Source of the DNA: Brevundimonas diminuta ATCC 11568
Lineage (GTDB): Bacteria > Pseudomonadota > Alphaproteobacteria > Caulobacterales > Caulobacteraceae
Direction of reading: 5' to 3'
Assembly: GCF_000204035.1 (NCBI RefSeq)
Contig: NZ_GL883084.1
Span: 156,229-190,070, forward strand
Length of the DNA: 33,842 nucleotides
In this document: one piece after another, positions 6,157 to 26,248 of the stretch
Layout of the letters: every line of letters begins with the position of its first letter
Position numbering within the stretch: the stretch's first letter is position 1
Translations under genes and position numbers: made by a program
The notes under the pieces: generated by a model
What the model was told of the DNA's origin: nothing
The model's input: the letters and a program-made list of their open reading frames with translations, nothing else
Databases searched by the model: none

Positions 6157-6246
6157 GGACAGGTGGCCGAGTGGTTGAAGGCGCACGCCTGGAACGCGTG
6201 TATAGGGGCAACTCTATCGAGGGTTCGAATCCCTCTCTGTCCGCCA
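6157..6246 (+). tRNA. tRNA-Ser(GGA)
   Basis: A 90-base serine tRNA with an encoded CCA end. The acceptor stem pairs GGACAGG (6157-6163) with TCTGTCC before the discriminator G. The anticodon stem-loop is CACGC-CTGGAAC-GCGTG with anticodon GGA at 6191-6193. A long variable arm (about 6201-6219), as expected for a class II tRNA, is followed by the T arm GAGGGTTCGAATCCCTC and the terminal GCCA. The last 15 bases of the gene and the next two form the left attachment site of the island that follows. Confidence 0.97.
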
Positions 6247-6248
6247 CC
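6232..6248. repeat. Left attachment repeat (attL core) in tRNA-Ser
   Basis: CCTCTCTGTCCGCCACC, covering the 3' end of the tRNA-Ser gene through CCA and two further bases. The identical 17-mer is at 25808-25824. Insertion here leaves the tRNA intact, the usual pattern for tyrosine integrases that use tRNA 3' ends. Confidence 0.9.
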
Positions 6249-6291
6249 CCGCGCAAATAATCGATCATTTTCAGTCCTGTAGATGCTGGAA

Positions 6292-6319
6292 TGTCTAACC
6301 CCTTCGGTCTGGTTAGACA
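6292..6319. repeat. Perfect inverted repeat, possible integrase arm site or terminator
   Basis: TGTCTAACC (6292-6300) and GGTTAGACA (6311-6319) are perfect inverted copies with a 10-base loop. The element lies between attL and the end of the integrase gene. It could form a hairpin ending the integrase transcript on the minus strand, although no T-run follows. The core GTTAGACA recurs at 25765-25772, 36 bases inside the other att site, which favours a binding site for integrase or Xis. Confidence 0.6.
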
Positions 6320-6340
6320 GATTTGTTCTGCCTTCGTGCC

Positions 6341-7372
6341 TCACCCCACCCGCTTCATGGCGCCGTCGGCGAGACCGCGGCGGTTGGCTTCTCGCGTGTA
6401 ACGCTCGATCTCTTTGAGGCTTTGATGGCCGGTGATGGCCGCGATTTCATGAGTCGAACAGCCAGCTTCCGCCAAGCGTCGAGACTGTGCTTTCCGCAAC
6501 CCATGCGCCGAGCAGTGCGGCAGGCCCGCCTTCACTGCGGCATCCTTGATCCAGTTTCCGAAGCCATTCGGCGTGTACATCTTCCCGTGCTGCGTGGTCA
6601 GGACAACCAAGTGACCAATGGCGCTCGCGGCAAGCGACGCCTGAAGGCGAGGGTGTTGAGGAATATCGATCAACTGACCCGTCTTACCCTGGCGGACCGT
6701 CACCCGATCGCGGGCGATCTGATGGACCGTCATCTGTCGCACGTCGTCGGATCGTTGCGCAGTGTAGAGCAATAGATCGAAGCCAAGACGCTGCTTCGAA
6801 CCGAGGGGCCAATGGGCCTCGAACATTGCGATCTCGTCTTCGGTCCAAGTGTGAAAACCGCTCGTCTGATGCTTGAGCATTCGCACACCCATAGTCGGGT
6901 CTACTGAGATAAGGCCCCGTTCCATCGCGAACCGCATGACAGACCGGAGGACTTTCAGCATGGTGTTTGCCGGAGTTACGGTGTTTCCCTGCTCAATCAT
7001 CTCACGCGCCATGTCATCCATTTGCTGGCGGATGTGACGGGGTTCGAGGCGGCTGAATGGCTTTGCGCCATGCACATCTCGATAGCGGTCCAAGACCCCT
7101 TTGTAGGTGTGCTTCGTGTTCGGCTTGAGCTGAAGAAATCTTGCGGAGCTGTAGTAGGCGACAGCGAGCGCGTGGATCGATCCGGGCTTCGTACGATCTT
7201 GTCCAATGGCCTTAGGACGCGCTTCGGATGATTCAGCATACCAAGCCCACCAGTCTTCCGTGCCGAAGATGGCGCGCGTCTGGCTTTGTGGCGAGCCGGT
7301 GCGTCTAAACCGCCAACGCAGCACGCCATGACGGTCACGATAGGCAGAAACAAACTTCGGCTTCGCCTTCAC
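6341..7372 (-). CDS. Tyrosine-type site-specific integrase
   Basis: A 343-residue tyrosine recombinase that should catalyse integration and excision of the island at the tRNA-Ser. The start is taken as GTG 7372, whose GTGA overlaps the upstream stop; an in-frame TTG at 7387 would add five residues. The N-terminal region (residues about 60-160) is an SAM-like core-binding domain. The catalytic set is visible: Arg207 in TAQRSDD, Lys230 in RQGKTGQ, His290 and Arg293 in SAHGLRK, His316 in GHQS, and the nucleophile Tyr325 in ERYTR. The gene points toward the tRNA and ends 92 bases from attL. It is translationally coupled to the AlpA-like gene upstream. Confidence 0.95.
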
Positions 7373-7617
7373 GCCACAGCATCCCAAGGATTGTCGAGCG
7401 GGTCCGGCCCATCATCGGGCAGCGCCGAAAACGCGCGATCAATCGCGTTTCGATCCCAGAGCTTTCGGCCGTCGATCCGCTTTGCGGACGGCATCCGACC
7501 ATCATCAACCAGCTGGTCGAATTTGGAGACGCTGACCCCGATGTATTGGCTGGCCAGCACCCGGCAGAGTCCGCGCGGGGCGAGGCTCATCGGCAGCTCT
7601 GATCGATTACGAGCCAT
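7369..7617 (-). CDS. AlpA/excisionase-like helix-turn-helix protein
   Basis: An 82-residue protein with one predicted winged helix-turn-helix: GLCRVLASQYIGVSVSKFDQ followed by LVDDGRMPSAKRIDGRKLW and DRNAIDRAFSAL. This pattern (recognition helix, then PxxxRxxGRxxWxRxxID) is common to AlpA/MerR-like excisionases encoded next to integrases. The start is ATG 7617 behind AAGAGG; a TTG at 7623 is the alternative. It overlaps the stop of the upstream gene region and the start of the integrase by four bases, so all three are one operon. Its role is probably directionality factor or regulator of integrase. Confidence 0.82.
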   Translation of the reverse strand: MARNRSELPMSLAPRGLCRVLASQYIGVSVSKFDQLVDDGRMPSAKRIDGRKLWDRNAIDRAFSALPDDGPDPLDNPWDAVA

Positions 7618-7619
7618 CG

Positions 7620-8390
7620 TCAACCTCTTTGGCCAAGCGTCGCCGCCGATGCGGGGACTCCGAAGCGGCTCGCCTCGGCGACCCTTTCCAAGGCGTCATG
7701 TCTGCGGACAAATGGGGCATCGACGCCGCGCACGCAGTTCATGGCGACATGAGCGGCGATTGCGCTCAATCGTATCGACGTGATCTTAGCTCTCGTGGCG
7801 TTGTCGATCGGACCCGCCAAGTTCAGGCTTGCCGAGAGAGGTGCGGGGTGCGGCAGTCCGTCTTGCGTAAAGCGCAGATACACGTCCTCGCCGCTCCTGA
7901 CGTAGACGTTGATGTCGCCCGACCAACCGAAACGGTCGTGGCGAACAATGAATGAGATTTCAGACGGCCGGCGATCCCCGCCCCCTGCACGGTCCGAAGG
8001 CGAACATTCGCCATTGGCGTACTGCTCCAAGAGGAGCGCCAGACCATCCAGCATCGTGACGCCCGGTTCGAGGCCGGTTCCGACCGGTCGTTGACTGAGT
8101 GGGAACGTCCCATGATCGCCACTGAACGTGCGCCCCGCCGAGCCTTCGAGAAGACGTAAATTTCCGACCTGACGCAGAGTATCTGCGGCGCGCGTGTTGT
8201 CGCCGCCAGCTGCTACTGCGAGCAGCATAGCCGCAGCATCGCGCTCGGTCATATGAGCGGCACTACGCCCGCGCCCCCCAGTGGTGATGTAACCCGCCTC
8301 TCTGAGCGAACGAGCCAGCACGACCATGCCCGGTTCCGGGTCACCGGTGACCTGCGCCAAGACGCCGACGAGTTGGGAAAGCAATGCCAT
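7620..8390 (-). CDS. Island protein of unknown function
   Basis: A 256-residue protein not assigned to a family. The N-terminus, roughly residues 1-70, is helical and contains SLREAGYITTGGRGRSAAHM and ERDAAAMLLAVAAGG, which resembles a small DNA-binding domain seen in island regulators; the rest has a beta-rich stretch (ISFIVRHDRFGWSGDINVYV) without a known motif. It is the first gene of the operon that continues into the AlpA-like protein and integrase: its stop at 7620 is next to the following start. There is no clear ribosome-binding site before ATG 8390, and a promoter-like sequence sits so close that the transcript may be leaderless. A role in controlling integrase expression is inferred from position only. 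Confidence 0.65.
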   Translation of the reverse strand: MALLSQLVGVLAQVTGDPEPGMVVLARSLREAGYITTGGRGRSAAHMTERDAAAMLLAVAAGGDNTRAADTLRQVGNLRLLEGSAGRTFSGDHGTFPLSQRPVGTGLEPGVTMLDGLALLLEQYANGECSPSDRAGGGDRRPSEISFIVRHDRFGWSGDINVYVRSGEDVYLRFTQDGLPHPAPLSASLNLAGPIDNATRAKITSIRLSAIAAHVAMNCVRGVDAPFVRRHDALERVAEASRFGVPASAATLGQRG

Positions 8391-8704: not shown

Positions 8705-9046
8705 GTGGGCTTGTCGGTGAGCCGGGCGAGAACCCGTCGGCTGTTGGTTACGCTGAGCGAAGCCGAACACGCTGGCATCAAAGCCAATGCGACGCGGTTC
8801 GGCATGTCGATGTCGATGTACCTGCGCAAGATCGGCTTGGGCTTTGAACCCAAATCAAAGTGGGATGCCGAAATCGCCCGCGACCTCATCCGGGTCAGAG
8901 GCGATCTCGGAAAGGTCGGCGGCCTGCTCAAGCTCTGGGTGATGGAGCGCCACGACGAGGGTCTGTCAGCCGATGACGTCACAACCCTCGCCGACCAGTT
9001 GGGCACCGTAGCGGAGGAGATCCGTCAGAAGGTCCGCGCCCTGTGA
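8705..9046 (+). CDS. TraJ/MobC-like relaxosome accessory protein
   Basis: A 113-residue protein that should bind oriT and help the relaxase load. The N-terminal part has a ribbon-helix-helix look (RARTRRLLVTLSEAEHAGIK, then ANATRFGMSMSMYLRK), and the second half carries RVRGDLGKVGGLLKLWV, a signature of TraJ/MobC-type proteins of the IncP group. The start is uncertain: GTG 8705, TTG 8711 and GTG 8717 are all in frame and none has a convincing ribosome-binding site. Its stop overlaps the GTG start of the relaxase (GTGA), so the two are translationally coupled. Confidence 0.85.
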   Translation: MGLSVSRARTRRLLVTLSEAEHAGIKANATRFGMSMSMYLRKIGLGFEPKSKWDAEIARDLIRVRGDLGKVGGLLKLWVMERHDEGLSADDVTTLADQLGTVAEEIRQKVRAL

Positions 9047-10830
9047 TCGCGCACCACATCAAACGAGCAGGCGGTTCGTTTGAGCGCCTGGGTTGCTACA
9101 TCCTGGACATCGCTCATCGCGCCGATCAGCGCGCTTTCGACCGGTTGGCTGGCTATGTCGTCGACCGGATCGGAGAAGGTGAACGCGTCGTTGCCGCTCG
9201 CGTCAGCAACTGTGCCGATGACGACATCGAAATGGCCATCACCGAGATAGAGTTGGTGCAGGCGCAAAACACCCGCTCCCAATCGGGAAAGAGCTATCAT
9301 CTGGTCGTGAGCTTCCGCGAGGGCGAACGACCGACCGCTGAACAACTCCGCGATATCGAGGACAACCTCGTCGCTTCGATCGGGTTTTCAGAGCACCAGC
9401 GCATTTCTGCGGTTCACGACGACACCGATAACCTTCACATGCACATCGCGATCAACAAGGTTCACCCGACGACCTTTCGCAACGTGGACCCGCATTACGA
9501 CTATCCGAAACTCATGGCCGCGTGCCGCGAGCTGGAACTCAAGCACGATCTCCAGCTCGACAATCACGGCCTCGCCAGCGATCAAGCCCGCAACCTAGGA
9601 CAGGACATGGCCTCGGCGCGCAGGTCCGATCGGGCGATCAAGATGGAGGCTCACTCCGATCGCCAGTCACTTGCGAGCTGGATCGAGGCGAACGCCAAGG
9701 CCGACATTCTGTCGATCGTCGCCCATGCACGCTCATGGGAGGCGCTTCACGAGGCGCTCGGCCAGCATGGCCTGACGATCCGCCCGAGAGGCGCCGGCCT
9801 TTCCATCGGCGTCACAGGAACCAAAGCATGGGTGAGGGCCAGCAGCGTTGATCGCTCTATGTCAGCAACGAGACTGACTGATAGACTTGGCCTCTACGCT
9901 GGACCGGTACACAGCCATGCTCCTTCCCGCCAACGGTACGGCGAAGCACAAGGGCGTGACCCCCAGAAGCGCCGACTTCACACAGCCTACACAACGGAGC
10001 GCGCGGTGAGGATGTCGGTACGATCGGCGGCACTGGCGAAGGTGAACCAAGCCTATCGTGACTATGCCGTTCAGCTGCGCGACCACTATCGACGAGAGAA
10101 GGACCGAGTCCGCACCCAGCCCGGCCTTTCCGGACGGTTGCGTCGGGGAGCCGTGGAACAGATCGAACACCTGCGGAAGAAGGCCTGCCTTGAGCGCAAC
10201 CGTCTACGGGATCAGGCCATGGCGGATGCGAAGGCCGCCCATCCCCTGCCGACATGGAAGGGCTTTCTGGAGCATCGCGCGGCCGCTGGCGACGAAGCTG
10301 CTCTGTCCTCGCTTCGATCACGCAAGGCGCGCAACGGCGGATCGCGCGGCGACCTTATCACGGCGCAGGATCGCGCCGGAGCCCGGGACATCATCTATCA
10401 GCAACGCATGCCGACCGTGATGCGGAACGGACAGGTCGCCTATCAAACACCGGACGGCGGCCGGGTCAGCGATCGCGCAGGCGAGGTGCGGGTCGAGACC
10501 GTCTCTGACGGCGCGGCCTTCCTCGCCTTGGCTCTGGCTTCAGATCGCTTTCCAGACCGACCATTGGTGATCGCAGGAAGCGACAGGTTCCTGGCTACGG
10601 TTCTGGCGGCGGCGAGCAGCCCTTGGCTTAAGGTGACCTTCGCGGATCAGACTTTGGAGCAAGCACGAAAGAGCCTTGAGCTTGAGAACAACGGTCACGA
10701 GCAGGGCCTGATGACGAGTCGGGAAGCCCCACAGCCCGTCGCTTCCACAGATCGACAGAGCCCGCGCATCGCAAACCCTGTGCAGTCCAATCTGCAACGC
10801 GACCGCCGCGGCCCTGAGCTCGGTCGATAG
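9043..10830 (+). CDS. TraI-like relaxase (MOBP family)
   Basis: A 595-residue relaxase that should nick oriT, stay covalently attached to the DNA and guide it into the recipient. The start is GTG 9043, overlapping the upstream stop. The N-terminal 200 residues follow IncP TraI closely: a candidate catalytic tyrosine Tyr39 in LAGYVVDRI, then AQNTRSQSGKSYHLVVSFREGE, EHQRISAVHDDTDN, and the metal-binding histidine motif HMHIAINK (His132, His134, with His125 before it). After a helical, basic middle region comes QVAYQTPDGGRVSDRAGEV with SDGAAFLALALASDRF, matching the LPD7-type domain that often follows relaxase domains. No helicase or primase domain is present. Confidence 0.93.
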   Translation: MIAHHIKRAGGSFERLGCYILDIAHRADQRAFDRLAGYVVDRIGEGERVVAARVSNCADDDIEMAITEIELVQAQNTRSQSGKSYHLVVSFREGERPTAEQLRDIEDNLVASIGFSEHQRISAVHDDTDNLHMHIAINKVHPTTFRNVDPHYDYPKLMAACRELELKHDLQLDNHGLASDQARNLGQDMASARRSDRAIKMEAHSDRQSLASWIEANAKADILSIVAHARSWEALHEALGQHGLTIRPRGAGLSIGVTGTKAWVRASSVDRSMSATRLTDRLGLYAGPVHSHAPSRQRYGEAQGRDPQKRRLHTAYTTERAVRMSVRSAALAKVNQAYRDYAVQLRDHYRREKDRVRTQPGLSGRLRRGAVEQIEHLRKKACLERNRLRDQAMADAKAAHPLPTWKGFLEHRAAAGDEAALSSLRSRKARNGGSRGDLITAQDRAGARDIIYQQRMPTVMRNGQVAYQTPDGGRVSDRAGEVRVETVSDGAAFLALALASDRFPDRPLVIAGSDRFLATVLAAASSPWLKVTFADQTLEQARKSLELENNGHEQGLMTSREAPQPVASTDRQSPRIANPVQSNLQRDRRGPELGR

Positions 10831-18880: not shown

Positions 18881-21800
18881 TCACCGGCGCCGCGAGCGTG
18901 CGAACACGCGGCGGACGGTGGCTTTTCCGTCAGCTTCGAGCACGTAGTCATTCACAAGGTCGGACTTGCCATACAGTCCCAACTCATCCGGCGATCGAGC
19001 AAGTTCGTAGCCAGATGCGTCGAGCCAGATCACTTCGTCTTCACCAGACATGGGCAGGACATTGTAGCGCTTCATGGCTCCAGTCGTGCCGGTCAACTCC
19101 GCTTCCTCCGGTATAGCTTCGGCGCGCTCCCGTTCTCTGACGGGCAGGCTCCGTTCCCACGACAGAAACTGCTGCGGATCGATCAGATCTTCGGAGGTTG
19201 GCGCGTCGATCTCATCTGCGAGCCATTGTTCGAATGTGAGTCTCAGCGCTTCCGCATCCTCGCGCGTTTTTGCGCGTCCTTGAGCCAATGCAAAGGCAAC
19301 GAAGGGATCGAGAGTTCCCCAGCGCAGCAGCTCACGCGCCCAGAAGCCGAACCAAGGAAGCCCCGTTGTGGCCTTCCACTCTGCAAGTGACGGAACGGCG
19401 AGCGGATCACCGGCACCCACGGTCCACTTCTGCGCGACGACCGCGCCGATCGCGACTCCCAGTCGAAACTCGAGATTGTCGGCGACGAACCGCTGATGGG
19501 CGCGAAGACTGCCAGCTTCGGGGACTTTGCCGCCCGGCGCGCGCATCCACCAGCTCAGGACGCTGGTCCAAGCCTCAAGGATCTCCTGATCTCCGACCGT
19601 ATCACGCACTCGGAAACCGAAGCCGCGATCCTTCGTCAAAAGCTCGCCGAGGACCTCAAACCGCGTCAGACGCTCGGTTGGGGTCTCGGTTCCATAGTCA
19701 GTTGCTGCCGCCAGTAGGTCGGCAATTGCTGGTGCAATCGCCTCGAACCGCCTACCGACATAAGGAGAGAAGCCGTATTGGTAGAGCCGCCTCCGTTCAC
19801 CGGCGTCAGGGTAGATCTCCTCGACGATTGCCCGCCCGCGCCGCACGATCGCTTGTTCGAGCCATGCCTCCTGCGCTGCTGCGGCAACGGTGAAGGTCCT
19901 TTGCCAGAGAGCAGTGAGCTTGACCTCGGCCTGCGCCCCGTCGAGCTCCGCGTCGAGAAGGCTGAGTTCCTCCAATGCCGTCATCACAAATGCATCGAGC
20001 TCGTCGACTGTATCGGCTAGCCGGGAAAGCTCGTCGCTCGCGCCGGTCCCGGCATCATCGCTCAACTCGCTGGGTGCGATCTGCTCGAGCCATTCCAGAA
20101 AGGCCTCGTCGGTCAGATGCCCGAAGTAGATCCGCGCCTTCTGACGCAGCTCGCTGAGTAGCATTGCGAGCGGACTGAGCGTCGCATCGCCCGCAAGTTC
20201 GTCAAGCCGGAGGCTCTCGCGCAATGCCTCATAGTCTTCGCGCAGTGCACCCACCTGATTGCGCTGAGTCTGTTTCTGCCCGTTGGCGGTAGTGGCTATC
20301 GTGGTGGGCAAAGCGATTAGTGTCAGCCCTTCCATACCACGCGTCGCACCCGGCCTGCCGGCACGTCCGGCGAGGTTGCGGAATTCGGCCGGAGTGTAGG
20401 GAGTGATGACCGGCTGCTGCTTGACGTTGTCATATGCGCTGCGCTTGAGCGAGGTGACAAAGATGATGTCAAACGGGAGATTGACGCCCTCAGTAAGCGT
20501 TGCGGTAGCCACCGTGATTGGACATATCTTCTCGTCGATCAGCGCCACCATCAGCCGCCGTAGACGTTGCGGCATCTGGCCATGGCTGGTCGCTATCCCA
20601 CGATCAAGCAGCCGCACCTCATAGGAATCAGGCCCGCAATAATCGACGCAGGCTGCCCGGGCTTCAGCGAACAAATCACCGCGCCTTCCCTCGGGGGGCG
20701 CAAAAGCCGGTAGTCCCTGCCACGCCGGAAGGTCAAAGGATTCTGCGTACCACCCCATCGTCTGTTCGGGTTGCTGTGCCAGCGATATGAGGATCCGGCG
20801 ATCGGTCGAGGCGAGGTGCAGGGCCGTCCAAAGAACGGTCACCTGGTTGAAGCGGTAGAGGCTGGACCGCATCTGCGGGGGCAATTGCGCCATCGGTGGG
20901 ATCGTAAGGTTTAGATAAACCGGGGCATCACCACGGCCTTGAACGTAGAGAGGCCGGCCGTTCATAAGTTCCAGCAACATCGTGCTGCGCCGCTCCGATG
21001 CCGTCTCCAATACCCCGATGACTTGGCGAGTGCTGCGATACCGCGTGCCGATCGCTGCTGCGTCCGCGGCACCCTCCATCCAACGTGCTACGGGTCCGGC
21101 AGCCCCGCCGGCGACTGCGGTCAACGCAATACGGACAATGTCGGGAGCCTGAGTAAGCAAGCGCGCGACGAAGCTCTCTAGTTTGAGCGAACGGCTGCTA
21201 TGATCGGCAAAGGCGCTACGACCGCTTTCCGTGTCATCGGGTAGAACCTGATGCGCCTCGTCGACGATCAGGAGCTTGAGGCGACTGAGCAACAGCGGCG
21301 CTAGATAGCGCATGAGCGCATCGGCCTTTTCAACCGTGGCGATGAGCACAGTTGGGCGGTCGGCGTTCAGCCAATAATCGGTGATGCCCCAGTCTGCACC
21401 GCCATAAAGGCCGGTAATGATGAGATCACGACCGAGCTCAGAGGCTAGTTTTGCCTCGACTTCACCGGCGAGCGCGCGGGACGGAACCAGATAAAGGGCC
21501 AACGGCACAACCTCGCCATGATCGCGCAGCAATAGTTCCTTCACGAGGCCGAGATTGGCGACCAGCGTTTTGCCCGATCCGGTCGGCGTGCAGAGCGCGA
21601 ATGACGAGTTTTCCAGCAGGCGGGCGAGACCGGCACGCTGGGACGACCACAGTATTCCGCGCCCGCGCGAGAACTGGTCGCGCGCAAAGGCTAGCATGCG
21701 CGGCATTCGCTCAGGGTTAAGTTCGCCGAGCGCGCGGACCGAACGATAGATGCTGGCGTCGGCAAACCGTTCGCCGACTTGCCGCAACAAGGTGATGAGC

Positions 21801-22507
21801 AGCGAGACGTCGTCGCTGAACGTGCGCACGGCCATTGCATCGAGCGCCTTAAGCTTCGCAGCGGCCTTCGCGAGGCGGCGATCATCCCCACGCCGGATCG
21901 AATCCGCAAACAGGCCAAGCGCGCGAATGAGTTCGACCGTGAAGTACCAACTGAGCCTGTCATCCTTGTTTTCTTCAAGGATCCGGAGGGAAGAACCGGC
22001 GTAGGTCAGGTCCTCGTTCTGATGCCAGAAGGCCATCGCATGGACGAGCACTGCGTTGAAATCGGCTTGAAGGAACGCGGCGAAAAGCTTTGGGCCGTCC
22101 TCCTCGAGATTGAGCTGCTGGAGAAGGCCTGACGCCATCGCTGGGAGACCGCCCAGCTGGAAGGCAGCACCGGCGAGCAACTCGATGGGCGCGATCGTCC
22201 GGATGTCGTCTGCAGAGCGCGCCAGCCATTCGAGAAGCTCGCCGGCACGCCGGTAGCAGTCGATCGCGCGTGGCGCTTCATGGCCTTCGATCTCTGCAAA
22301 GATCTCGGCTGCCTGCAACAGGCTTCGCGCATCCGCCAGTTGGCCTTCAGAATCGCTGCGGTTCCAACTGATCGTGTCGACCTGCCATCCAATCTGGAGG
22401 CAGCGGACATAGGAGCGCGCCTGGTTGGCAGATATCTCGTTTTCCAGCGCCAGTCCGATACGGGCGCCGTTCGCAATCTCGAGCCGCTGCGGATCATTCG
22501 CGGGCAT
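18881..22507 (-). CDS. hamB: HamB-like large SF2 helicase (Hachiman-like)
   Basis: A 1208-residue Ski2-like superfamily 2 helicase. The start is ATG 22507, overlapping the hamA stop by one base; an ATG at 22519 is the alternative. Residues 1-300 are helical and repeat-like (QAAEIFAEIEGHEAPRAIDC, then further paired helices) and unassigned. Helicase motifs: Walker A CTPTGSGKT at 306-314, VPSRALAGEVE, Walker B VDEAH at 415-419, a second RecA domain with TATLTEGVNLPFD and the motif VI stretch NLAGRAGRPG. The C-terminal third is helical. In Hachiman the helicase HamB works with the nuclease HamA; HamB proteins known to me are usually shorter. The partner gene and overlap support the call more than sequence alone. 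Confidence 0.78.
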   Translation of the reverse strand: MPANDPQRLEIANGARIGLALENEISANQARSYVRCLQIGWQVDTISWNRSDSEGQLADARSLLQAAEIFAEIEGHEAPRAIDCYRRAGELLEWLARSADDIRTIAPIELLAGAAFQLGGLPAMASGLLQQLNLEEDGPKLFAAFLQADFNAVLVHAMAFWHQNEDLTYAGSSLRILEENKDDRLSWYFTVELIRALGLFADSIRRGDDRRLAKAAAKLKALDAMAVRTFSDDVSLLITLLRQVGERFADASIYRSVRALGELNPERMPRMLAFARDQFSRGRGILWSSQRAGLARLLENSSFALCTPTGSGKTLVANLGLVKELLLRDHGEVVPLALYLVPSRALAGEVEAKLASELGRDLIITGLYGGADWGITDYWLNADRPTVLIATVEKADALMRYLAPLLLSRLKLLIVDEAHQVLPDDTESGRSAFADHSSRSLKLESFVARLLTQAPDIVRIALTAVAGGAAGPVARWMEGAADAAAIGTRYRSTRQVIGVLETASERRSTMLLELMNGRPLYVQGRGDAPVYLNLTIPPMAQLPPQMRSSLYRFNQVTVLWTALHLASTDRRILISLAQQPEQTMGWYAESFDLPAWQGLPAFAPPEGRRGDLFAEARAACVDYCGPDSYEVRLLDRGIATSHGQMPQRLRRLMVALIDEKICPITVATATLTEGVNLPFDIIFVTSLKRSAYDNVKQQPVITPYTPAEFRNLAGRAGRPGATRGMEGLTLIALPTTIATTANGQKQTQRNQVGALREDYEALRESLRLDELAGDATLSPLAMLLSELRQKARIYFGHLTDEAFLEWLEQIAPSELSDDAGTGASDELSRLADTVDELDAFVMTALEELSLLDAELDGAQAEVKLTALWQRTFTVAAAAQEAWLEQAIVRRGRAIVEEIYPDAGERRRLYQYGFSPYVGRRFEAIAPAIADLLAAATDYGTETPTERLTRFEVLGELLTKDRGFGFRVRDTVGDQEILEAWTSVLSWWMRAPGGKVPEAGSLRAHQRFVADNLEFRLGVAIGAVVAQKWTVGAGDPLAVPSLAEWKATTGLPWFGFWARELLRWGTLDPFVAFALAQGRAKTREDAEALRLTFEQWLADEIDAPTSEDLIDPQQFLSWERSLPVRERERAEAIPEEAELTGTTGAMKRYNVLPMSGEDEVIWLDASGYELARSPDELGLYGKSDLVNDYVLEADGKATVRRVFARSRRR

Positions 22508-23460
22508 CAGATCGCCCACAAGGCTTCATAGACGCCATCGATCAGCTCATCGCCATCGTTCAGAATGAGCTCGACTACCTGCAGGTCATGCGGTGCCGAG
22601 TATTCTTGGGGCACCGCCTCCCAAGGGATCAGTGATGTTTTGGAAGCGCGGCTAGGCACGTCGCCACCCGAGATCAGGATCAGGTTCGTTCGTGGCAGCG
22701 GTTCGGCATTCCTCGCCATCAGCACACGGTCGAGCCTAGCGATCGCGGCGGAGTATCCGTCAGGGTCAATCTCGCGAAGCAGGCGCTGCAGTTGTCGTAG
22801 GCCGTGTGGCGCTGGGATGTCCCGATTGATCTGGAACCAGATACCCTTACCGTCGTGCTCAAGCTGCTCGGTGTTCGGGTTTTTCTTCTTCTTACCGTAC
22901 ATCAACTCAGCGACAACGGAGGGCTGAAGCTTCTTCCGCCACTTGGCTTCACCCGCGATGAAGCGCTCGATGTCCCCCTCATCGTTGAGCGCCAGTGCGA
23001 GGAAATCGGAGCCACGCCTGCCATAGACCTCGCGTTTGCGTTCTTCATCCCGGACGAGAGCGAAGAGGTAGGCCTCCGCATCCTCGTGGTAACGGAAGAG
23101 GAATACGGGAATCGTCCAAGTATGGCTGCCGATATAATCGTAATGCTCGGTGAGCATGCCTGCCATGACCTCACCAAACAGGCCACGACGCGTGATCGAC
23201 GGCAGACAGGTTGGATAAGTAATATGCGCTTCGGGCGCATCCGCATCAGGATGAAGCTCGATGCCCATCTGTTCATGGAAGAACACGCGAGCGTCTGTAT
23301 GCGCGGATTCGAAATAGCCCACCAAATCGGCGATTAGATCGTCGTCGCAGTCGCAATCTTGCTCGAGCAGAAGGTGACCATAATTATCGACGTCGCTCGG
23401 ATAGTCCCTAAGCCATCTTGCCAGAGCAGCCTTTGGCGGTGGGCAATTGTGTAAGGTCAA
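22507..23460 (-). CDS. hamA: HamA-like DUF1837 nuclease (Hachiman-like)
   Basis: A 317-residue protein that I read as a divergent HamA/DUF1837 effector nuclease. The start is taken as TTG 23460, seven bases after GGGGGAG; an in-frame ATG at 23601 lacks such a site and would add 47 residues of unlikely sequence. The family pattern is visible: RRGLFGEVMAGMLTEH (Glu97), a strand with TWTIPVFLFRYHEDAE, then GRRGSDFLALALND (Asp152) and IAGEAKWR (Glu171, Lys173), which together fit a PD-(D/E)xK active site. The next gene, a large helicase, overlaps its stop codon (TGATG). HamA is held inactive by HamB and degrades DNA upon activation, according to published work on Hachiman. The alternative is another PD-(D/E)xK protein paired with a helicase. 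Confidence 0.72.
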   Translation of the reverse strand: MTLHNCPPPKAALARWLRDYPSDVDNYGHLLLEQDCDCDDDLIADLVGYFESAHTDARVFFHEQMGIELHPDADAPEAHITYPTCLPSITRRGLFGEVMAGMLTEHYDYIGSHTWTIPVFLFRYHEDAEAYLFALVRDEERKREVYGRRGSDFLALALNDEGDIERFIAGEAKWRKKLQPSVVAELMYGKKKKNPNTEQLEHDGKGIWFQINRDIPAPHGLRQLQRLLREIDPDGYSAAIARLDRVLMARNAEPLPRTNLILISGGDVPSRASKTSLIPWEAVPQEYSAPHDLQVVELILNDGDELIDGVYEALWAI

Positions 23461-23615
23461 TGTTGAACTCCCCCGCACTGAATGTATGAAAATCAGGCGA
23501 CGGCATGAAGCGATAAAAATACCCAGTTGCGATATTTGCGTTGACGCTGCGCTTGGCGCTTCGATCGGGCACTCCGAACCGCCCCAACGAGTCTCGGCCA
23601 ATTATGCTTCGCCAG

Positions 23616-24730: not shown

Positions 24731-24829
24731 TTGCCGCACCTTATGCGGTGAATGTGGGCGCTATTCGCCGCAAGAGCAAGACTCAATCAGCGCGAAATTT
24801 GCGGTGAATATCGCAGACTTTCGCCGCAA
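24731..24829. promoter_or_regulatory. Repeated operator upstream of the Fic gene
   Basis: Two inverted repeats with one mismatch each: GCGGTGAAT (24745-24753) with ATTCGCCGC (24763-24771), and TTGCGGTGAA (24799-24808) with TTCGCCGCAA (24820-24829). A further half-site TTGCCGCA is at 24731-24738, next to the Fic start. The half-site consensus is TTGCGGTGAA or TTGCGGCGAA. They cover the expected promoter, so binding should repress fic, possibly through the winged helix of Fic itself. Confidence 0.65.
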
Positions 24830-24837
24830 GGCTCCGA

Positions 24838-25572
24838 TCAGGCCGCAAGGCGTGTGGCTTCGCAGCGCAGAACGATGGACACGCCTCTCTCAGCAAGCGG
24901 ACGACCGACAAGGTCTTTCAGCCGACCGAATGCGGTAGGACTGGAGCAGACGATGCGTTGGCCATCGGGCTCCCATCTGGCGCAATCCAAATAGCTCACC
25001 GTCGCAGCTTCCCCGATGACCTGAACGACCGCCTGCCGGATGTCGGCCTGCGCAAACGGGACAACCTGCGCCGGCGTACCGACCACGTCCCGCTGCTGGC
25101 TTTCGGCGGCGCGAAATCTTCTAATGGAGTCATAAGGGAATTGTCGGACGTCCATGTCCGGTTTTCGTGACTTGGGTGTCCGGTTTTTTGCCGGTTGAGT
25201 GGACGCGGGTGTCCGCTTTTCTCCCATTTGATCGGTCATGGATGTCCGCTTTTCAGATGCCTCTGCGGCATCGTCGGGTAGTGTGGCGCGGTAGATATTG
25301 GTTCGGCTACGGCCCTTGCGAACTTCGATTTGAAGATAAGCAGCGGTTTCGAGTTGTTTGAGCAGACGCCTCAGTTGCCTGTCGCTCAAGCCAAGGCTGG
25401 CGGCCATGCTGTCCTGGCCCCTCCAGGCACCCCCTACGCAGGGGTTCAGGTCGTGCACGAGTAGGCTGACGACAGATTTGGCGGACCGTGAGACGGCGGG
25501 GTCTCGCATGATCCGTTTATGCCAAGCGAGTTTTTCTGCGCAGAAGTTTTCAGGATCGAGACGGCGGCTCAT
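24838..25572 (-). CDS. Replication-initiator-like winged-helix protein
   Basis: A 244-residue protein starting at ATG 25572 behind GGAGG. Residues about 30-95 form a helix-turn-helix or winged helix: SVVSLLVHDL, then GQDSMAASLGLSDRQLRRLL and LETAAYLQIEVRKGRSRTN. The middle (about 105-135) is low in complexity, with KRTSMTDQMGEKRTPAS and KNRTP, and is explained by DNA repeats in the gene. The C-terminal domain (about 160-244) has IRQAVVQVIGEAATVSYLDC and ERGVSIVLRCEA. The layout matches helix-turn-helix proteins of alphaproteobacterial plasmids and islands thought to act in replication. Function is inferred; it could also be a transcription regulator. Confidence 0.7.
   Translation of the reverse strand: MSRRLDPENFCAEKLAWHKRIMRDPAVSRSAKSVVSLLVHDLNPCVGGAWRGQDSMAASLGLSDRQLRRLLKQLETAAYLQIEVRKGRSRTNIYRATLPDDAAEASEKRTSMTDQMGEKRTPASTQPAKNRTPKSRKPDMDVRQFPYDSIRRFRAAESQQRDVVGTPAQVVPFAQADIRQAVVQVIGEAATVSYLDCARWEPDGQRIVCSSPTAFGRLKDLVGRPLAERGVSIVLRCEATRLAA
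25154..25254 (-). repeat. Four iteron-like direct repeats inside the rep-like gene
   Basis: Thirteen-base copies at 25242-25254, 25209-25221, 25176-25188 and 25154-25166 read on the minus strand as GAAAAGCGGACAT, GAAAAGCGGACAC, AAAAACCGGACAC and GAAAACCGGACAT. Starts are 33, 33 and 22 bases apart, all multiples of 11. The first three lie in the same codon phase (EKRTS, EKRTP, KNRTP), the fourth is shifted by one base, so the conservation is at DNA level. Confidence 0.75.
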
Positions 25573-25807
25573 GGTCGAGCCTCCGGCGTTGCAGCCGAGT
25601 CTGGCAGTGGGTAGGATGCCTGCGGCCTTGAGTGTTGTGCCCAGCCTATTCGAACCCCGCCGAGCGCTGCAACGCTGGCGGGGTTTTTCGTGGCCAAAAC
25701 GTCTCCCGCCAGGTTAGCCAAACGGGGAAAATCCCAAAGAATTTCAATATGGGGGCTACACCCCGTTAGACACATCAAGGTTTTGGATTTACGAGGAAAG
25801 CGGATTT
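25573..25807. other. Leader region of the rep-like gene, no protein-coding gene
   Basis: No convincing gene is seen; an open frame that crosses the attachment site is not supported. The region contains a hairpin with a T-run on the plus strand (25654-25688), a short stem GGGG-CTACA-CCCC near 25751-25764, the GTTAGACA sequence at 25765-25772 shared with the left end, and then the right attachment site. The promoter of the rep-like gene should be here, but I cannot point to a clear one. Confidence 0.6.
25654..25688 (+). terminator. Rho-independent terminator facing plus strand
   Basis: ACCCCGCC (25654-25661) pairs with GGCGGGGT (25677-25684), extended inside by AGCG with CGCT, and is followed by TTTTT. 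No plus-strand protein gene ends here, so it may terminate a short antisense RNA or insulate the rep-like gene from readthrough. Confidence 0.6.
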
Positions 25808-25824
25808 CCTCTCTGTCCGCCACC
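25808..25824. repeat. Right attachment repeat (attR core)
   Basis: Same CCTCTCTGTCCGCCACC as the tRNA end at 6232-6248. It is followed by ACGGCTTTTTCTGC, whose T-run looks like the original terminator region of the tRNA gene displaced by the insertion. Confidence 0.9.
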
Positions 25825-26248
25825 ACGGCTTTTTCTGCTATACTTTAATCTTGTGTTACTGGATTTTGCTCAACGCCCTGCGCGCGGGGATAGAAACAAG
25901 TCTCTATTTCGTGCTCGAGGATAGCAGGGTCGGCCAGAGCCCGACGCTCTTCAGCTCGCGATGGCGTTCGGCGCCTTTTACCTTCTAGCGCCCGGGATAG
26001 ACATGATCGCGCGGACTGGGCATTCAGCTTCCGCTAAACGTCTCGTCATGGCTTTTCACCGCCGCGTCGCGCGAGCTGACAGTTCTGATCGCCCGGTGAG
26101 GAGCTCCCGCCGTGAGCCCCCACCAAGCAGAGACAAAGTAAACAATGGTTCATTATAGTAATTAAGCGCGCACTAAGCCTGTCTGATCGGCAGGCGTTAA
26201 GGGCGCCCCCTTTATGGTCTCGTGGCAATCAGGAGCCATGAGGACGCC
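25825..26248. other. Chromosomal intergenic region beyond the island
   Basis: About 424 bases without a supported gene. The first part is AT-rich and carries the T-run that probably ended the tRNA-Ser transcript before insertion. A TATAGT box at about 26154-26159 may belong to the promoter of the next gene, but I cannot find a good -35. A small inverted repeat GCCTG/CAGGC lies near 26176-26194. An open frame at 25961-26158 has no ribosome-binding site and no family resemblance. Confidence 0.5.

Follow-up and report, generated by a model that had tools for sequence, protein, structure and literature searches.

Within a single gene of Brevundimonas diminuta ATCC 11568 lie four short repeats, three in one codon phase and the last displaced by one base, and the question is whether they are kept as protein or as DNA and, if as DNA, what they are for. 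The window referred to throughout is the whole stretch of 33,842 nucleotides that was analysed (contig NZ_GL883084.1, positions 156,229–190,070). The repeats are very likely initiator-binding iterons of a lambda-type origin situated inside its own initiator gene (rep), on an integrative and probably mobilizable island. The gene and the features within and beside it are:

24838–25572, minus strand: rep, gene of a 244-residue O-like initiator (PHROG match and AlphaFold2 model)
Rep residues 12–97, winged-helix domain; residues 100–169, disordered linker; residues 176–235, C-terminal domain (AlphaFold2)
25233–25252, minus strand: iteron 1, AAAGCGGACATCCATGACCG, frame of KRTSMT
25200–25219, minus strand: iteron 2, AAAGCGGACACCCGCGTCCA, frame of KRTPAS
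25167–25186, minus strand: iteron 3, AAACCGGACACCCAAGTCAC, frame of NRTPKS
25145–25164, minus strand: iteron 4, AAACCGGACATGGACGTCCG, shifted by one base, frame of KPDMDVR, 22 bp from iteron 3
25100–25144, minus strand: A+T-richer stretch directly after iteron 4, candidate unwinding element (GC 0.47 against 0.60 for the gene)
25117–25260, no strand assigned: footprint of silent-site constraint (codons 105–152), the proposed origin
25573–25807, minus strand: rep leader, separating the rep start from attR and conserved among close members

The sequence TGTCCGSTTTT (AAAASCGGACA on the coding, minus strand) starts at 25155, 25177, 25210 and 25243. A pattern search of the window allowing up to one mismatch gave four matches, all exact (0.61 expected; four or more in 0 of 100 shuffles), and found the iterons where the list from a repeat search at default settings lacks the family. 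Measured from start to start along the coding strand of the minus-strand ORF, the spacings are 33, 33 and 22 bp, as the initial annotation had it, and translation agrees with its further statement that three copies share a codon phase and a fourth, shifted by one base, encodes KPDMD; the upstream copies, iterons 1–3, encode EKRTS, EKRTP and KNRTP. The repeats are thus real, but the 13 bases originally assigned to each are too few, each being an imperfect dyad of about 20 bp (AAA-S-CGGACA-nnnn-YGTCCG). These four sites fit AAASCGGACAnnnnnGWC and are the only such four in the 3.37-Mb genome; an extended 18-base pattern (AAASCGGACANNNNNGWC) likewise has four matches genome-wide, all in rep (reversed control, 0), with no extra copy in the rep leader or elsewhere. 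They occupy codons 107–143, within the low-confidence, disordered linker between the two domains of the initiator, and are spaced at about whole helical turns.

The symmetry was examined in an aligned set of 15 distinct family members, the window included and mutually repeating loci counted once (for example L011/L002, L016/L012, L017/L010; related loci carry L numbers). Mean arm complementarity is 4.4 of 6 over 50 sites in 14 members, against 1.3–2.2 with the centre slid by 1–3 bases and 1.8 in shuffled sequence; L004 was omitted here and from the synonymous null below because its sites differ. The four window iterons score 5, 4, 3 and 5 of 6. On average the dyad is more complete at the out-of-phase last site (5.4 over 14 sites) than at the in-frame ones (4.0 over 36).

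Every one of the 15 aligned members, even L004 with its different site sequence, ends on a step of 22 bp, and the other steps are 33 bp except in L024 and L025, where they are 45 bp (counted from positions). A step of 33 bp, the least common multiple of 11 and 3, is the shortest at which sites stay in register with both an 11-bp helical turn and the codons; at 22 bp the helical register is preserved and the last site falls into a different codon phase. An out-of-frame copy is less rare than was first supposed: the four iterons of lambda, taken as a control and annotated at 18 bp, fall in three codon phases (spacings 20, 24 and 23), and most of the other O-like genes whose repeats are significant have them in more than one frame. 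A 12-mer test, requiring at least three copies in excess of every one of 20 synonymous shuffles, was passed by 16 of 56 distinct O-like ORFs from loci L001–L076. Of the 16, 15 have their copies in more than one frame, and half of their steps, 19 of 38, measure 22 or 23 bp. The 16 comprise five close members (window included) and 11 distant ones, 10 of the latter with more than one frame. The 40 that failed include L010 and L024, whose iterons are plain by alignment, as well as many partial or weak-match ORFs. An out-of-frame iteron looks normal for a lambda-type origin.

Lambda O resembles rep in having iterons inside the initiator gene and in more than one frame, and its iterons lie at codons 117–145, compared with 107–143 in rep; in lambda they are followed by an A+T-rich run, in rep by a modestly A+T-richer stretch. 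PMC5043065 describes oriLambda as lying within O, with near-perfect inverted repeats that bind O dimers and an adjoining 40-bp A+T-rich region that opens. The 45 bases after the lambda iterons have 24% GC. The corresponding 45 bases have a GC content of 0.38–0.53 in 11 of the 15 members (window 0.47), against 0.59–0.67 for the genes, and 0.56–0.60 in the four most distant (L003, L004, L024 and L025), where the A+T-rich stretch is absent; that of the window is modest, with three 36-base windows of rep lower in GC and the lowest elsewhere in the gene. The O genes of Stx phages are reported to have six iterons and, the sites being coding, 13 extra residues (PMC7466680). Iteron number likewise varies here, from two sites in L031 to six in L004; the Stx O protein differs in being closely lambda-like, and its sites are unrelated. 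By close analogy with lambda O, the best explanation would be that rep contains its own origin, as the initial annotation had proposed.

A hairpin in the rep leader (AACCCCGCC..GGCGGGGTT, 25653–25689) is nearly invariant in 11 aligned members and terminator-like on the plus strand; followed by TTTTT on the antisense strand, it could terminate an antisense RNA controlling rep. A terminator scan gave 2 sites against 1.4 in shuffles, which is not above chance and by itself proves nothing, and a promoter scan gave none in 25000–26000 or 6200–7700. The gene next to rep encodes a Fic protein, and between the two are direct repeats of 31 bases at 24744–24774 and 24800–24830 (TGCGGTGAA..TTCGCCGCAAG, 77% identical), a possible operator of the Fic gene.

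The rep gene is the last one of an island of 19.6 kb that lies between repeats of a tRNA gene end. The features that define the island are:

6157–6246, plus strand: tRNA-Ser(gga), the integration target
6232–6248, no strand assigned: attL core, at the 3′ end of tRNA-Ser(gga)
25808–25824, no strand assigned: attR core, a 17-bp copy of the tRNA-Ser 3′ end
6341–7387, minus strand: tyrosine integrase (int; PF00589, E 2.5e-15)
9043–10830, plus strand: TraI/MobA(P)-family relaxase (NF041893, E 9.2e-136, 453.7 bits, cut-off 250)

The island thus has a site-specific integrase, direct att repeats and its own relaxase (this last in the window only), as integrative and mobilizable elements (IMEs) do. A VirB4-family protein is matched three times in the genome, always on contig C5 and never in the island (contig C3), and by this one family tested the island lacks a complete conjugation apparatus of its own. 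Its cargo is of defence type: a T5orf172/MUG113 protein, helicases, a type IIG MmeI-like enzyme, Mrr, a Hachiman-like helicase and Fic. The Hachiman-like pair (18881–23601) pairs a helicase that matches HamB (E 2.3e-44) with a neighbouring protein whose match to HamA is weak (E 3.4e-4). Beside the integrase, an ORF of 256 residues (7620–8390) without a Pfam family has relatives in L079 and L088. Read by eye, an inverted pair TGTCTAACC/GGTTAGACA lies beside attL (6292–6319) and the similar words GTTAGACA and GGTTAGCC lie inside attR (25765–25772 and 25712–25719); these word pairs could be integrase arm sites or an excisionase region. None of 15 relative loci contains tRNA-Ser(gga), leaving no empty site for comparison, so that the right boundary rests on the 17-bp repeat and the sister islands; att words aside, the relatives match the right flank only from ~26150 rightwards.

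Copies of att were sought in 13 stretches, the window and 12 of 18 relative stretches, and two copies were found in six. Five of the six have the int–att–rep arrangement (the window, L079, L080, L085 and L090), the four sister islands measuring 10.5–17.5 kb between att copies; the sixth, L083, gave no integrase match. In L077 (the rep of L014) the only att copy lies apart from rep. In the five islands int adjoins the tRNA end and points at att, and rep adjoins the other att copy, 122–236 bp inside it, and points away from att, so that circularization would bring int, attP and rep together in a row on one strand. The region 6200–7700 gave no terminator-like site, and those in 25000–26000 sit on the other strand. 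This order suggests that circularization could couple rep transcription to int. Replication of the island after excision, which the initial annotation had allowed for, would fit the att repeats, the integrase, the relaxase and the four sister islands. On the sister island of B. terrae (L085, 7299–14708) an ORF of 2469 residues combines DnaG-type primase and reverse-transcriptase domains.

No complete relaxase was found in L079, L080 and L085 (tblastn with the window relaxase; 7, 6 and 3 ORFs given to Pfam), so that mobilizability is shown by gene content for the window element only. This counts towards a satellite life style, in which the origin would be used only under a helper phage and not in a conjugation-mobilized or self-maintained circle, as does the combination of an integrase with an O-like initiator, which resembles phage satellites. 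A satellite life style is nevertheless unlikely, given that the TraI/MobA(P) relaxase of the window island scores above the curated cut-off and that the 11 island ORFs given to Pfam, a scan with small ORFs outside it, include no capsid-, terminase- or packaging-like gene. The same 11 ORFs (small ORFs again outside the scan) include no lambda-P or DnaC-like loader; since none is adjacent, the module is described as working like that of lambda and is not filed as an O-P module.

The protein itself matches phrog_391 ('replication initiation O-like', E 9.2e-8) over residues 46–140, that is the N domain and part of the linker, and also phrog_270, 345, 428 and 8102. An AlphaFold2 model built on the alignment of 15 members has a mean pLDDT of 67 and a pTM of 0.38, with residues 100–169 at low confidence. 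The sole Pfam match is a weak one to HTH_36, a generic helix-turn-helix, below the cut-off, and the best Foldseek matches are MarR- and ArsR-type regulators, all of which would suit sites that are operators only, bound by Rep or another island regulator to control transcription, with the protein a regulator and not an initiator. That reading is quite unlikely: the sites are mid-gene rather than at a promoter and have no copy in the leader or the rest of the genome, the PHROG matches are to O-like initiators, and phased multi-copy dyads with a conserved stretch after them are like the origin of lambda. Among the many winged helices matched by the N domain, 5kbj ('Structure of Rep-DNA complex') ranks fifth (5kbj_H, E 5.8e-3); it is taken here to be the RepA_N plasmid initiator of pSK41 type, with iterons presumably inside that rep gene too. 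A winged-helix N domain is a possible common feature of RepA_N and Rep, with no sequence match between them and no C-terminal kinship shown.

The C-terminal domain folded alone has a mean pLDDT of 88. In a second-look structural alignment three DnaA domain I structures come out on top, namely 2wp0_D (Z 6.5, rmsd 2.6, 64 residues aligned), 4tps_B (Z 6.1, rmsd 2.7, 63 aligned) and 2e0g (Z 5.6, rmsd 3.5, 71 aligned), with the next structure at Z 4.6; all top Z values, 5.6–6.5, are below 8. Foldseek places LarE first (E 0.57) and 4tps_D 14th (E 1.2). When the domain from 14 members was compared with PHROGs, six families each drew a match from a single member (best E 0.036), giving nothing usable, and its sequence likewise gave nothing usable among NCBIfam and PDB sequences, including no DnaA domain I sequence. 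DnaA domain I binds DnaB, and on the structural model a direct recruitment of the helicase by the C-terminal domain of Rep is plausible.

Relatives of Rep were matched in 21 of 131 genomes of the genus (E ≤0.001, the window's own genome included), and the Rep profile in 56 of 299 genomes of the family and 19 of 385 of the class, many of these matches being to one domain only. Named sources are Brevundimonas guildfordensis, B. bullata, B. diminuta and B. terrae, and eight other close members are 58–71% identical to the window Rep. L086 has two rep genes on the same strand ~12 kb apart with two iterons left in each, as would follow from in-frame recombination between iterons 1 and 3, and one copy is also broken downstream. 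Some members are broken or short (L022 is frame-broken and L023 truncated), and tblastn of Rep found no match in plasmid records (E limit 1e-5) or phage records (E limit 1e-3), nor were any of 23 stretches of viral contigs that fit a pattern in a profile scan confirmed as Rep relatives. Broken members and the lack of a free plasmid or phage relative in the records scanned are what favours a decayed or purely inherited origin, a prophage-derived module on an integrated island that no longer replicates. The window gene is intact, however, and the silent sites of the family bear on the same point.

Silent-site divergence, compared among the nine closest of the 15 members (window included; 36 non-independent pairs), is 0.106 (108/1016) over codons 105–152, against 0.403 (1057/2623) in the N domain and 0.427 (701/1641) in the C domain. 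Amino-acid identity in the same nine is lowest there, at 0.59 compared with 0.78 and 0.66 respectively. The 48-codon window with the lowest silent divergence starts at codon 107, a value reached in 0 of 10,000 column permutations, and low divergence runs past iteron 4, with a silent-site ratio of 0.22 over codons 144–152. Low silent together with high replacement divergence points to selection on DNA. Recent gene conversion was considered and is hard to square with that combination. The constraint on silent sites among nine members also suggests selection lasting through their divergence, which leaves a decayed origin very unlikely.

A second line of evidence is the out-of-phase site itself. 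Synonymous codons were resampled 5000 times per member in 14 members including the window, with site positions picked on the observed sequences, and the last site exceeds this null in 14 of 14 (best-match P ≤0.0038), mean identity being reached in 0 of 5000 resamplings in 13 members and at P 0.0026 in L031. The in-frame copies alone are weak against the null in some members (P 0.13 in L024, 0.036 in L025 and 0.012 in L013). L024 has an identical run of 19 bases in two frames, read as KRTLAS and KADTGVP, and L004 has six copies of a GGTGTCACC-like site, four steps of 33 bp being followed by one of 22 that puts the last copy in another frame. The alternative that the repeats exist for the sake of the protein, as KRTP-type motifs in a low-complexity linker, accords with three copies sharing a codon phase and similar peptides. 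It is already contradicted by a fourth copy encoding different residues, by peptides that diverge where silent sites do not and by synonymous nulls that are exceeded, and is scarcely credible.

The third line is a change of half-site. In six members (L010, L012, L015, L018, L019 and L031) the last site is GGTCA..TGACC and not GGACA..YGTCC, a difference in both arms that preserves the dyad. Iteron 1, in the other codon phase, is also GGTCA in all five of these members that have it, as is iteron 2 in three of the five that have it, while all six have GGACA at iteron 3; among the four close members of GGACA type, three already have GACC as the right arm of iteron 1. On a tree built without the linker the GGTCA type needs two changes, with one change in 40% of bootstrap trees, and a single origin is neither proved nor excluded. 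The deduction in the initial annotation that the repeats are kept as DNA is upheld on each count: by two-frame identity beyond the synonymous null, by silent-site conservation confined to the repeat block, and by the GGTCA-for-GGACA variant in two codon phases of the same genes. It had named free variation of the repeats at DNA level in homologues as the observation that would tell against it, and the sites are not freely variable, with silent differences of 11% against 40–43%. Maintenance of the iterons as DNA sites is strongly supported.

With the repeats read as iterons of an origin within rep, a course of excision, Rep binding, origin opening, helicase recruitment and replication can be proposed. 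The integrase would excise the 19.6-kb element at the 17-bp tRNA-Ser repeats, and Rep would bind the four phased dyads mid-gene through its winged-helix domain, probably as a dimer. Wrapping by Rep would strain and open the A+T-richer stretch after iteron 4, the C-terminal domain, with its predicted fold like DnaA domain I, would recruit the host DnaB helicase, and theta replication of the excised circle would follow. A more detailed proposal, offered tentatively and doubtful as a whole, is that of a P-independent lambda-type replicon on tRNA-Ser islands, in which the DnaA-domain-I-like tail would recruit DnaB, rep with its internal origin would come under int transcription after circularization, and the iteron recognition sequence would have switched within the family in both codon phases and in both arms of the last site.

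Compared with lambda, the module differs in lying on an integrative island, in its site sequence, in its 33/33/22 spacing, in having no P-like loader seen adjacent and in a C-terminal domain that may resemble DnaA domain I. A 2017 review, which heads the subject of IMEs 'An Unexplored World', lists IMEs with Rep_3 initiators or phage-type replisome organizers (PMC5704250), and later papers report that SGI1 replicates (PMC7433901, PMC7826253). IMEs with theta initiators (SGI1, BcenGI2 and others) share with the window element an integrase, a relaxase and an initiator of their own; the SGI1 initiator is of Rep_3 type, whereas the O-like gene of the window carries the proposed origin within its coding sequence. 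None of the matches listed in a search of open-licence papers, by title and the start of the abstract, concerned these tRNA-Ser islands or the rep family. It is well supported that this is a known kind in a new form, a lambda-like origin-in-initiator on a tRNA-Ser island family, differing in its C-terminal domain and in having no loader seen beside it.

The locus is a clean natural case of one DNA stretch that encodes protein and most likely also serves as a replication origin, in which the conflict between helix and codon is visibly resolved, 33 bp serving both phases and 22 bp sacrificing the codon phase. The rep family also provides ready pairs of initiator and site variants for testing the co-evolution of recognition, and the element suggests how small chromosomal islands with anti-phage genes may persist as circles during transfer.
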